IMG/VR virus record: IMGVR_UViG_3300032073_000351
Location: 1-20,150 of that record
Length of the DNA: 20,150 nt
Origin: a virus
Reading direction: 5' to 3' (one strand)
The position numbers were made by a program, and so were the translations under genes. Shown here one piece after another: positions 7,796 to 12,191 of this stretch; position 1 is the stretch's first letter, and each line of letters starts with the position of its first letter. The notes under the pieces are model-generated. The model was not told the origin of the DNA. It saw nothing but the letters and a program-made list of their open reading frames with translations, and ran no database searches.

Positions 7796-7800
7796 TGTTT

Positions 7801-7818
7801 AGGTCCTACGGACCTTTT
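7801..7818 (+). terminator. Probable terminator of the gp55-gp47-gp46 operon
   Basis: AGGTCC-TAC-GGACCT forms a perfect 6-bp stem with a 3-base loop, followed by a short T run (7815-7818). It starts 5 bp after the last stop codon of the operon. The T run is short, so termination may be partial. A second, longer stem, 7816-7823 with 7862-7869, is followed by six T residues at 7871-7876 and may be the stronger stop. Confidence 0.55.
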
Positions 7819-7876
7819 CAAACTACATTCAATCGTTTCGTTTCACTACACTCTTTCTTTTGTTTGAAAGTTTTTT
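7816..7876 (+). terminator. Second possible terminator: long-loop hairpin plus T6
   Basis: TTTCAAAC (7816-7823) pairs with GTTTGAAA (7862-7869), leaving a 38-base loop, and the 3' arm is followed by G and six T. The loop is larger than in usual intrinsic terminators, so this is tentative. It shares its first bases with the T run of the hairpin at 7801-7818. Confidence 0.3.
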
Positions 7877-8276
7877 AAGTAATACCGTTATCATGTATGT
7901 TTGGGTCATAACTCACCTATACAGGTGAGAATGATGTCATCATGTGATGCCGTCGCCATCTTAACCTCGGGTGCTACTAGGAACCGGTGAGCCTTCTGTC
8001 CCCATACACTACCGTCACGAATCTCACGGAAATTATATAACCTAGGTAAGGTTAGTTATATAACTTGTAAGTTGCTTTTTCTCAGAGCTTACATCCTTTT
8101 AATACTGTTTGTCGTGTGTTTGTATTTTTGCCGCTATACATCTCCAATATCTCGCACCGGGTGTTTCCATTGCCGGATTGTCGAGGAGCCCGATTTTATA
8201 TGCCTCGGTTGGGGCCGGTGTATAGTCCTATGTGTGCCTTGATTGACTTTACGTCTGTGATGCCATGATGTGAGTT

Positions 8277-8306
8277 GTTATCAGCAATTAGTTATCAGTC
8301 TGATAA
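8277..8306. repeat. Short direct repeat plus inverted repeat at the end of the GIY-YIG gene
   Basis: GTTATCAG occurs at 8277-8284 and 8291-8298, a 14-bp period. The second copy also forms an inverted repeat, TTATCA-GTC-TGATAA (8292-8306), overlapping the stop codon of the minus-strand nuclease gene. No T run follows on the minus strand, so it is not a standard terminator; it may stabilise the 3' end or mark the edge of the G+C-rich island. Confidence 0.35.
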
Positions 8307-8711
8307 TGCTTCTTTCAGGATTTTTGAACCGCCTACTCTAACGTTAATAATTCCGTTATAATAGTCGTCAGTAAGTAGTACTTCTCGTTCGAATTGTTCT
8401 TTGGCTTCCAGGTAACTTGCAACGCCTCTACTAGGACAAAGATATAAAATTTCTCTTGTAAATTTGTCTTCTCCTAAAGTAATAACATCTTCTTTTAAAT
8501 AATCATTACTGCCCCAATATGTACGCCAATCTGATTCTTTGTAACCACGACGTTTATTCTTTTTGCCTTTTAAGGGAGGTTTAGTTGTTTTAAATTTTGC
8601 AAGTTTTTTACCTACGTATTTTTTATTATTTGTATTGTTTGTGATAATGTAAACAAATGCTTCACAGTCTTCAGGAAGTTGATCTAATTCTTTTTGTTTA
8701 TATAACCACAT
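8295..8711 (-). CDS. GIY-YIG nuclease-like protein
   Basis: This 138-residue protein has the marks of a GIY-YIG nuclease domain. VYIITNNTNNKKYVGKK (residues 20-36) corresponds to GIY...YIG in variant form (VYI, YVG). DWRTYWGSNDYL (61-72) supplies the conserved Arg and the Tyr-Trp-Gly-Ser turn seen in phage members. YLEAKEQFE (100-108) supplies the catalytic Glu at position 103, and YYNGIINV (117-124) the conserved Asn region. A basic insert, KPPLKGKKNKRRGYK, lies at about residues 45-58. There is no extra DNA-binding domain, unlike I-TevI. Its ATG overlaps the upstream stop by one base (TAATG), so it is translated with the tail genes. It may be a free-standing homing endonuclease, or a conserved phage protein with repair or host-DNA degradation duty. 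Confidence 0.75.
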   Translation of the reverse strand: MWLYKQKELDQLPEDCEAFVYIITNNTNNKKYVGKKLAKFKTTKPPLKGKKNKRRGYKESDWRTYWGSNDYLKEDVITLGEDKFTREILYLCPSRGVASYLEAKEQFEREVLLTDDYYNGIINVRVGGSKILKEALSD

Positions 8712-9007
8712 TATAAGTATTCATTTGTTTCAGAATCATCACCGTTTCTTGCTTTAGAAAAATTAGTTAAAACTTCTATAAATAATACTCTTTCTTCTGA
8801 TGATAAATTCCATGCTTCTGTATAAGAGATCGTGCCTTCACTATACACTACCATTTCCATAATGTTTTTATATAGTGCCGATCTGTCGTTTTTTAACTTC
8901 TCTAGGAACTGAATTATTTCATCAGGTTCGGCTGTCGCTAGGAAGCCGTGAAAAAATTTACAGGGTCTAATATAATTTTTGTTTCTGTAATTTTGTCTTC
9001 GCCGCAA
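8711..9007 (-). CDS. -1 frame extension of the gp26-like protein (probable frameshift product)
   Basis: The frame is open from 9007 to the stop at 8711 but has no ATG in its first 48 codons; the only possible initiator near its beginning is a TTG with no ribosome binding site. It overlaps the end of the gp26-like gene by 70 bases and is its -1 frame. In the overlap the gp26 frame reads A AAT TTT TTC, which contains two slippery heptamers. Slipping there would replace the last three gp26 residues by 79 new ones, starting HGFLATAEPDE and ending NGDDSETNEYL, to give a protein of about 359 residues. The new part is helical and mixed-charge with no catalytic motif. Frameshifted G/GT-type pairs are the usual form of phage tape-measure chaperones. 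The next gene starts on its stop codon (TAATG). Initiation at TTG remains an alternative. Confidence 0.7.
   Translation of the reverse strand: MRRRQNYRNKNYIRPCKFFHGFLATAEPDEIIQFLEKLKNDRSALYKNIMEMVVYSEGTISYTEAWNLSSEERVLFIEVLTNFSKARNGDDSETNEYL
8929..8959 (-). promoter_or_regulatory. Probable programmed -1 ribosomal frameshift site
   Basis: On the minus strand the gp26 codons read GTA AAT TTT TTC, giving two overlapping slippery heptamers in the right phase: A AAT TTT (8959-8953) and T TTT TTC (8956-8950). The zero-frame stop TAG is at 8940-8938, three codons on. A stem, CGGCT/AGCCG (8948-8944 with 8933-8929, 10-base loop), starts 4 bases after the first heptamer or 1 base after the second, and could stimulate slippage. 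Confidence 0.7.
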
Positions 9008-9789
9008 TCTTCACATGCAAATTTAACATCTTTTGAAACACCTTTTGTAGAAATTTTACTGCTTTCTTCTTCTATCTTAGTACCAATACTTGCTTCACAG
9101 TTTTCTAAAAACTCAACAATTTGTTCTCTATCAGTAACTTCTACAGGTTCATCACCGTCTATTATAATTCTTTCTATACTATCACAGATTAAATTAAAAT
9201 TTAATAAAGCCATTCTATTAAAATTTTCATTAAAGATTGATAATTTGTCCATGTCATCTGGTAAATCTGCTATTCCTTGTAAACTTCTTGTAGTTTGGAA
9301 ATTAACAAGACCTGCTTCTATTGTGCTTCTATATCTTACTGGACGTAAGTGTACAGACAATCCGTCCCACTTAATAGCATTCACTTCTTCAAGTGGATCT
9401 ATCTGATCTAAGGCTTCTTGTATGCTTGTAGAGCCTGTAAGTTCTTTCTCACAATATTGACATTTAGTAGATACTTCCATATCATCGCCATATGTAGCAG
9501 ATTGAATGCCCATTAAAAGAGCGTCTACATCTATATTTGTAAGTTCACGTGGCTCCAAAGCACTAGGTACACAACTTTTTATAACCTGTAATACTGCTTC
9601 TCCGTTTAATAATGCATCTGGATTTTTCATCATTATTTCATCCTTTGCAGTCATAGGAAAAATAGCAATTTCTTTGTTCTCTGGAAAGTCCAAATCTTTA
9701 TCTGTATTGAACAATCCCCCACTAGGCAATTTCATATATAATTTAGGTTGCCTAAAATGATTTGCTAATGGATTGGTCTTATTTGTCAT
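8938..9789 (-). CDS. 26: gp26-like baseplate hub / tape-measure chaperone protein with zinc ribbon
   Basis: This 283-residue protein resembles the T4 gp26-type baseplate family. The N-terminus contains LYMKLPSGG (residues 17-25), a hallmark opening, followed by the acidic FPMTAKDEIMMKNPDALLNG stretch (44-63) seen across these proteins. Two Cys pairs, CQYC (110-113) and CEDC (259-262), would form a zinc ribbon. T4 gp26 is 208 residues and acts in hub assembly. The gene is divergent from the probable tape measure gene, and its 3' end carries a -1 slippery site leading into a 79-residue extension, which suggests a tape-measure chaperone made in short and long forms. The ATG at 9789-9787 is preceded by AGGAG; the late promoter is at 9847-9854. 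Family assignment is by recognition and context, not alignment. Confidence 0.7.
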   Translation of the reverse strand: MTNKTNPLANHFRQPKLYMKLPSGGLFNTDKDLDFPENKEIAIFPMTAKDEIMMKNPDALLNGEAVLQVIKSCVPSALEPRELTNIDVDALLMGIQSATYGDDMEVSTKCQYCEKELTGSTSIQEALDQIDPLEEVNAIKWDGLSVHLRPVRYRSTIEAGLVNFQTTRSLQGIADLPDDMDKLSIFNENFNRMALLNFNLICDSIERIIIDGDEPVEVTDREQIVEFLENCEASIGTKIEEESSKISTKGVSKDVKFACEDCGEDKITETKIILDPVNFFTAS

Positions 9790-9887: not shown

Positions 9888-12191
9888 ATGGATGCAATAA
9901 CATTAGACAACGGACAAACGGTAGTACCAGATTGGGCTAAAGAAAGTACCATGAAAAGAATGGCGACTGACATGTCTAAATTGTCTAAAACTATTCAAGA
10001 AGAGAATGTCAAACTTATAAAAGCAATAACAAGTGGAAAGGGAACTAATCAAACCGCCAATCAAGCATCAAATAATGCTAATAGCAAAGCTCAAGATGAA
10101 AATACTAAACAAGTAAAAAAAGCATCTATGGAATATAATAATGCTAGAGGATTATTTGTTGATATGGGTGCCGCCTTTGGTGGAGCAGTTCAGGGTATAG
10201 TCACAGGAATAGGTGCTGTATCAGGTGCTGTAGCGGCATTGGCCGGTGATGTAATGTTGAGATATACAGGTTCTTTGAATAGATTAACAGACGTTGGATT
10301 GAATCAAGCAGACGAATTTGTAAGAACTAATTTTGAATTAAGAACATTTGGATTAAGTTTAGCAGATGCCACTAACTTTACACTTACTACTGCAGGTGCT
10401 TTTCAGGCTTTAGGTGGCGAATCTGTTAATAAAATGTTAGATACATTTGATTCGATGACCGATGCTGGGTCTAGATTTGGTTTAAGATTAGAAGATAATA
10501 TAGAAATTTTCAGAGATGAAATGCGATTTGCTACAAGAATGGGTAACATAGGTGAATTAAATGCAAAACAACAACAAAAACTTTCTATACAGACAGCCGA
10601 ACTATTAGAAACACAGATTGCCTATTCAGGTGCTTTGGGAGAAAGTGTAGAAGTTATAAGAATGTTTGCAATTAACACTTTGGAAAATGCAACAGACTTT
10701 CAATCAAGGTTGCTTTTAACTAGCGAAGCCACAAGACAGGAAATGTTAAAGGGTGCTCAAGAGTTTGTTAGTGTTTTAAGAGCAACAGGCGGAGAACTAG
10801 GTGGAGAATTAGCCGCGGCGGCTATTGAAGCGGGCTCATTTGGTGCTATTGGTTTCAGTGAAGCGGCAAAAAGATTTATAACAGTATTGCCTACTTTAGC
10901 AGGTAGTTTTAATAATGTAATAAATGATTTTAATCGTGGTCTTATTGATGGTGAAGAAGCCGCATTAATGTTTACAGAGCAGTTAGGAAATTTATCTGAA
11001 GGTGAAAAACAAAGAATATTTGCAATAGCCAGAACAGGTGACCAACAGGCATTACAAATGTCTAAAGGTATTATGCAATTTGAAAAAGCCGCTAAGAAAA
11101 TATCAGATATGGGAGATAAATTTAAAGATGTATCTCCGGTAGAATTTCAAAGAATGGTCAACTTGCTTAGTGGTTCTGGTTCTCAACTTATAGAATCTAT
11201 AACAGCAGTCAAAGATAAGTTTATTATGAATTTTTTAATGGGTATAGATTACAATAAATTTAATAATTCTTTTGCATCACTTAGAGAGGCACTTATAAAT
11301 CTTGCAGAAACTTTCTTTGATATTGAAGGCGACACATCAGGCCTTGCTGAGATGTTTGCTGAAAAATTACCAGTAGCAATAGATTATATGACGGTAAAAA
11401 TTTCACAATTTAATACTGCTGTATCAAAGTTTTTAGACGAAAATGAAGGTGCCGGATATTTAGATACGTTTAAAGCCAAAATAATTCCAATTTTAGAAAA
11501 TATTGGTAAAATGTTAGAAATAGAATTTAAAGTTATGATTGCAGGATTAGTTGCAAGGATAATGCCTGGGTCAAATGAAGAAAAAGTTCAGGCCGCAAAA
11601 GATAATAAAAGAGAAGAGTTAGAATTAAGAAACAAGAGAAGAGAAGTCGAAAAATACAGTGAACAAGTGTTTGCAAAATCAAGTTTAGGCAAAAAACCAG
11701 ATCAAACTTCTTTTAATATCGATCATGGCGGGGGTTTTGATGACCCAAATCGTTTAGGTACTAGAAACTTCCATAAGCAATTCCAACAATTCTTTAATCC
11801 AAATTCTGAAGCCGAAAATATAATAGGTAAAAGAGGCGGAGCCGCAGGATTCTTAGGTGATGTTGATACGCCAGGAGTTGGTAATTTGAGATTTGTAAGT
11901 GATGCTAAACAAAATGTTGTCAGTTTGGGCGATACAAAAATGTCAAAAAGTGAACAAGAACAGTTAGATCGATTTATGGATGGTACAAGAACACAGGCAG
12001 AACGATTTGAAGTATTTCGAGCACAACAAACTGAACTTGGTTTAAATAGATCTCAACAAGCAGACTTTAAAAATACCTTTGATACAGATGGCGTAGCAGG
12101 ATTATCTAATGAAGAATTAAAATCATACTTTGAAACACTTATTCTTTTAACTAGAAAACAAACAAAAATTGTCGAAGAAGGCAACCAGTAA
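9888..12191 (+). CDS. Probable tape measure / tail length protein (gp29 position)
   Basis: This 767-residue protein is proposed to set tail length and sit inside the tail tube. Residues 20-90 are Gln/Asn/Lys-rich and helical. A long Gly/Ala/Val hydrophobic segment follows (residues 92-125, including AVQGIVTGIGAVSGAVAALAG), as in many tape measure proteins. The rest is mostly predicted helix with Phe-rich amphipathic repeats, then a Gly-rich linker at about 615-660 and a helical C-terminus (SYFETLILLTRKQTKIVEEG). T4 gp29 is 590 residues. The gp26-like gene with its frameshift extension lies immediately divergent, the classical partner of a tape measure gene, and gp20 follows. No clear Shine-Dalgarno sequence precedes the ATG at 9888. 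I infer the role from composition and context; another large structural protein cannot be excluded. Confidence 0.6.
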   Translation: MDAITLDNGQTVVPDWAKESTMKRMATDMSKLSKTIQEENVKLIKAITSGKGTNQTANQASNNANSKAQDENTKQVKKASMEYNNARGLFVDMGAAFGGAVQGIVTGIGAVSGAVAALAGDVMLRYTGSLNRLTDVGLNQADEFVRTNFELRTFGLSLADATNFTLTTAGAFQALGGESVNKMLDTFDSMTDAGSRFGLRLEDNIEIFRDEMRFATRMGNIGELNAKQQQKLSIQTAELLETQIAYSGALGESVEVIRMFAINTLENATDFQSRLLLTSEATRQEMLKGAQEFVSVLRATGGELGGELAAAAIEAGSFGAIGFSEAAKRFITVLPTLAGSFNNVINDFNRGLIDGEEAALMFTEQLGNLSEGEKQRIFAIARTGDQQALQMSKGIMQFEKAAKKISDMGDKFKDVSPVEFQRMVNLLSGSGSQLIESITAVKDKFIMNFLMGIDYNKFNNSFASLREALINLAETFFDIEGDTSGLAEMFAEKLPVAIDYMTVKISQFNTAVSKFLDENEGAGYLDTFKAKIIPILENIGKMLEIEFKVMIAGLVARIMPGSNEEKVQAAKDNKREELELRNKRREVEKYSEQVFAKSSLGKKPDQTSFNIDHGGGFDDPNRLGTRNFHKQFQQFFNPNSEAENIIGKRGGAAGFLGDVDTPGVGNLRFVSDAKQNVVSLGDTKMSKSEQEQLDRFMDGTRTQAERFEVFRAQQTELGLNRSQQADFKNTFDTDGVAGLSNEELKSYFETLILLTRKQTKIVEEGNQ

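Follow-up and report, generated by a model that had tools for sequence, protein, structure and literature searches.

The gp26-like gene of the window (the whole stretch of 20,150 nucleotides analysed, from IMG/VR virus record IMGVR_UViG_3300032073_000351) very probably encodes a tail-assembly chaperone of the gp26/gp51 family whose long form would be produced by programmed −1 ribosomal frameshifting, as judged from sequence comparison. The conservation of a slippery heptamer, a coding −1 frame, gene copy numbers and homology to the gp51 C-terminus together point to a frameshifted chaperone resembling lambda G/GT. Most ribosomes would halt at the TAG at 8938 and release a 283-residue short form, and a fraction would shift when both Phe tRNAs re-pair one base back on T_TTT_TTC; slipping of the Asn and Phe tRNAs on A_AAT_TTT would give the same protein. 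Shifted ribosomes would continue to 8711, and the resulting long form of 359 residues would end in a helical domain. If the two forms act like lambda gpG and gpGT, the tape measure protein would be coated by the short one, while the scarcer long one would bring in the subunits of the tail tube.

The gp26-like ORF matched PF12322 (T4_baseplate) in Pfam with 64 bits versus a gathering cut-off of 24.5 (E 2e-17), and phrog_150, the family of T4 gp26, in PHROGs with an E value of 5e-22. The gene ends with GAC CCT GTA AAT TTT TTC ACG GCT TCC TAG, and both in-phase heptamers that had been predicted near its end were located there (Table 1). The −1 frame contains no stop between 9010 and 8714 and is bounded by TAG at 9013–9011 upstream and TAA at 8713–8711 downstream. 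Its overlap with the gp26 frame (70 nt), the size of the frameshift product (computed as 280 + 79 = 359 residues, with the junction between VNFF and HGF) and the TTG at 9007 as its sole start codon upstream of the slip site all agreed with the original prediction. Two further in-phase copies of AAATTTT are present in this AT-rich gene, at codons 188 and 196, so the evidence from the single sequence is weak, and it is the comparative evidence from relatives that places the heptamer far beyond chance. Megablast of the window against phages gave no match, and neither Rfam families nor tRNAs were detected in it.

Table 1 Coordinates of the gp26-like locus and neighbouring features in the window.
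Feature	Position	Strand	Remarks
gp26-like gene, short form of the putative chaperone (TAC-N)	8938..9789	-	283 aa, PF12322 / phrog_150
0-frame stop TAG of the gp26-like gene	8938..8940	-	three codons past the slip site
Slippery heptamer T_TTT_TTC, predicted main shift site	8950..8956	-	in phase with gp26
Overlapping heptamer A_AAT_TTT	8953..8959	-	in phase with gp26
−1 frame extension (HGFLATAEPDEI...NEYL), C-terminal part of the predicted long form (TAC-NC, 359 aa)	8711..8950	-	79 aa after the slip, including TAA
Possible stimulatory stem, GGCTTCCTAG (8947-8938) with CTAG-a-GAAGTT (8905-8895)	8895..8947	-	ten pairs
CGGCT/AGCCG stem, 8948-8944 with 8933-8929	8929..8948	-	competes with the longer stem
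Divergent 767-aa ORF, positional candidate for the tape measure	9888..12191	+	between gp26 and the next gene

Nearly 200 related sequences, from giant, marine, freshwater and cyanobacterial phages, share the slip site; they were picked for the likeness of their proteins, irrespective of the heptamer, and are interrelated within each scan with many near-copies. The first IMG/VR loci found with the protein had an in-phase heptamer and a −1 ORF in 18/18 cases, down to 32% identity. The near-relative alignment scan, whose 80 loci are partly the same as these 18, gave an in-phase heptamer in 80/80; T_TTT_TTC was present in 70, and ten had A_AAT_TTT alone, followed by TCC. The sequence of L200–L202 is ACT TTT TTC, which removes A_AAT_TTT and leaves T_TTT_TTC only. 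At least one of the two heptamers was always present across the 80; loss of the slippery run in close relatives, which would have refuted the original prediction, was thus not observed. The overlapping heptamers have been lost independently, near the gp26 stop in L172, L188, L206, L207, L217 and L224, and in L200–L202; independent loss of either one amounts to a natural test of which heptamer functions.

Among jumbo phages, the heptamer was found in 16/16 (Phosso, Atu_ph07, 121Q, Paride, Munch, CBB, GAP32, BF, XaC1, Vibrio 2.275.O, Kaldavass, XbC2, RaK2, RAS14, SCTP-2 and Hallingskeid), as T_TTT_TTC in all but RAS14 (T_TTT_TTT). In 80/80 cyanophage-like loci, found with gp26 of Synechococcus phage Sf-FS3, a single codon separates T_TTT_TTC from the stop; the same holds for Rhizobium phage IC12, and the heptamer was kept in all 16 freshwater T4-like loci and in L127 and L145–L147. 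Three loci with partial gp26 matches (L144, L148 and L149) were left out of the counts for and against. The sole exception met was Pseudomonas phage Cygsa01 (L046, 3280–3320), in which the extension is present and the heptamer absent (AGC ATT TTC ACC TAATG). Its slip site is ATT TTC, and TAATG is the point at which its gp51, in the −1 frame, overlaps gp26; a switch to coupled reinitiation is possible in this phage.

A total of 87 distinct genes were compared in codon alignments of the jumbo set, the cyanophage set and both combined. The codon preceding the Phe pair encodes S, N, D, H, Y or R, yet its final base is T in 87/87; the Phe codons are TTT in 87/87, then TTC in 86/87. In each of the three alignments, the slip-site TTT and TTC ranked lowest in entropy among the conserved columns, whereas the other conserved two-fold columns, which share the same ancestry, were more variable (median entropy 0.72, 0.68 and 0.55). 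Taken together, the comparisons give very strong support to programmed −1 frameshifting as a predicted event.

The long form might instead come from slippage of RNA polymerase, not of the ribosome, on the T run, as polymerase slippage on T runs is known for other genes and a run of six Ts is present in nearly all of the sequences. However, six Ts are short for such slippage, ten relatives retain only A_AAT_TTT with five Ts, and conservation applies to the codon phase and to the XXXYYYZ pattern with its final C; polymerase slippage is accordingly a very improbable explanation.

The extension itself appears to evolve as a protein. In codons 5–22, situated downstream of the gp26 stop and ahead of every start codon, differences at positions 1, 2 and 3 were 0.31, 0.22 and 0.57, with a pN/pS of 0.41, and the other two frames contained stops in 31/32 and 28/32 sequences. 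FFH-FL directly after the slip was invariant in 38 sequences. The extension was predicted to be helical (pLDDT 85), and a BFVD fold search with the model found nothing below E 0.7. Relatives in the window's clade have no ATG preceded by a Shine-Dalgarno site from which the second frame could be started, a feature that would have counted against the original prediction. No ATG, GTG or TTG was present ahead of extension residue 23 in 54/70 near relatives; the first possible starts lie at residues 12–55, within or past the conserved protein. The overlapping −1 ORF thus evolves as a protein and without a start of its own, as is characteristic of frameshifted chaperones. Judged from these substitutions, protein-level selection is acting upstream of any ordinary start codon of the extension, and frameshifting would be the simplest means of supplying such a protein.

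A separate small gene, started at TTG 9007 or at an internal ATG, with the heptamer as an incidental feature, is highly improbable. Public records do annotate the extension in this way (121Q gp595, CBB gp249 and GAP32_242), and the TTG is present in the window; but this codon is missing from the nearest relative (L001) and from nearly all others, the extension of Pseudomonas phage Paride is devoid of start codons, and the frozen wobble bases would be left unexplained. Records of jumbo phages give the extension as a hypothetical protein with differing start residues, even between sister phages, or leave it unannotated. Separate initiation is possible in the cyanophages, which have an ATG 5 nt past the gp26 stop, and in 121Q, Phosso and Atu_ph07, since in all of these the slip and an ATG are no more than a few codons apart.

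Both routes may also coexist in some lineages (cyanophages and some jumbo phages), with a frameshifted long form and a free C-terminal protein made by stop-start reinitiation. The combination of that ATG with a perfectly kept heptamer in the cyanophage-like loci, and a TAATG in 121Q, would fit such a dual output, which we nevertheless consider rather unlikely: no Shine-Dalgarno-like stretch precedes these ATGs in the contexts inspected, and the ATG is missing in the freshwater relatives and in the window's clade. For the latter reason it does not apply to the window, for which frameshifting alone is the preferred reading.

The CGGCT/AGCCG stem noted after the slip site exists, but it is not general (fully paired in 18/46 distinct relatives), and a longer stem that folds better is the minimum-energy fold. 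This longer stem was complete in 19/46 distinct near relatives, with a few both-side changes (L190 and L172), was lost in the group of L171, L174, L182, L188 and L229, and was not seen in the jumbo phages. The window stretch folded only slightly better than shuffles (z −0.9), and no downstream structure common to the whole family was found. Both stems were consequently ruled out as general stimulators; a stimulatory stem in the window's clade is possible and would be limited to that clade.

Downstream of the extension, the start of a gene for a SegE-type GIY-YIG homing endonuclease (8295–8711, minus strand; PF19835, E 3e-32) overlaps the extension stop (TAATG); segE is also located a few kilobases from gene 26 in T4. 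About 500 bases without a clear gene (7796–8294), between two convergent genes, contain an inverted repeat, ctcacctatacaggtgag, near 7913, with no Rfam or tRNA match.

In T4, gp26 and gp51 are PF12322 paralogues that both match the family over about 200 N-terminal residues, and gp51 carries the extension in frame. Exactly one PF12322 gene was detected in 15 of the 16 heptamer-bearing records searched whole; in the 16th, SCTP-2, the profile detected none and the gene was found by tblastn. Two were present in T4 and seven other Straboviridae, and the window has one copy in its 20-kb record, which may be a fragment. By hhalign, the cyanophage extension matched the Straboviridae gp51 C-terminus (E 4.8e-11), with FFR at the slip aligned to FKLL of gp51, and the jumbo extension matched that of cyanophages (E 3e-5); the direct match of the jumbo extension to gp51 was weak (29%, E 6e-4). 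Family profiles were required for these alignments, as single T4 sequences against the fusion profile were too shallow. The C-terminus of T4 gp26 is KEFFELL with the Phe pair encoded by TTC TTT, and thus the pair is still present and the heptamer is absent. The frameshift interpretation is supported for the window's clade and does not extend to T4 itself, where gp26 and gp51 are two separate genes.

A tree of the shared part, which is unrooted and does not give the order of states, split the Straboviridae gp26 and gp51 from all frameshift proteins with branch support of 99/95, consistent with a duplication inside the Straboviridae lineage. We infer that duplication replaced frameshifting in this family rather than the reverse. 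The −1 frameshift in the gp26/gp51 gene is probably general outside the Straboviridae (in giant phages, cyanophages, and uncultivated marine and freshwater T4-like phages) and probably ancestral there; cyanophage 'gp51' would then be mostly a fusion tail, and T4 would have replaced the frameshift by duplication. In RB43 and KP5 (L042 and L043; 1501–2795), gp51 and gp26 follow one another on the same strand with their order reversed, and gp26 is short (about 185 aa) and positioned apart from other gp26 in the tree.

A chaperone role of the gp26-like protein is suggested by its family and by analogy with lambda. The gp26 model (pLDDT 86) had the HK97 tail assembly chaperone 2ob9 as the best of 995 PDB chains in VIA-align (Z 6.1, rmsd 7.0 over 88 residues); this likeness is consistent with a chaperone but lies within the chance range by the tool's own yardstick. 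Foldseek of the model against the PDB gave nothing significant, and PDB sequence searches with the gp26 profile and T4 gp51 gave no matches. By its position, the divergent 767-aa ORF is a candidate for the tape measure protein: the gene beyond it (575 aa) occupies the position of the portal gene in relatives, and in 121Q, CBB and RaK2 the portal gene and gp26 flank an ORF of about the same size. It had no matches in Pfam and PHROGs, and its similarity to the ORF of Paride reached only E 0.002.

Frameshifting in the T4-like chaperone family is already known, at least in part: papers citing Vladimirov, Gautam and Davidson 2022 attribute poly-T slip sites in T4-like chaperone genes to that work. 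No literature report of a frameshift in the jumbo phages or the window's clade was found, the 2022 study being represented by the papers that cite it. A 2016 review described the lambda G-T type frameshift as widely conserved in long-tailed phages, 'except T4' (PMC5009743).

The locus resembles lambda gpG/gpGT and its equivalents in that a small gene carries a slippery heptamer close to its 3' end, where a −1 shift is predicted to give a short and a long product; a position adjoining the tape measure may be a further likeness, the neighbouring ORF being a candidate for it. It differs in its T_TTT_TTC slip site, its PF12322 chaperone, with no sequence homology shown to the lambda protein, and its divergent orientation from the presumed tape measure gene. 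The chaperone of Vandenendeviridae and Andersonviridae, for which a −1 frameshift at GTTTTT was proposed (PMC12846349), may be comparable in that a poly-T slip site ends its short gene and its extension is mis-annotated; the phage group and the motif are different. T4-like cyanophages such as Sf-FS3 share the heptamer one codon before the gp26 stop and have gp51 in the −1 frame, unlike the window in that their gp51 has an ATG just past that stop. T4 has the same protein family, its gp26 ends soon after the FF at the slip position, and its gp51 runs on into a domain that resembles the extension of cyanophages; in contrast, its two genes lie apart on opposite strands, with TTC TTT in place of the heptamer. 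T4's own protein family thus carries the frameshift signal nearly everywhere else examined, and Straboviridae such as T4 would obtain the two products from genes 26 (short) and 51 (long). Recoding in one group and gene duplication in the other would thus clearly fulfil one and the same purpose.
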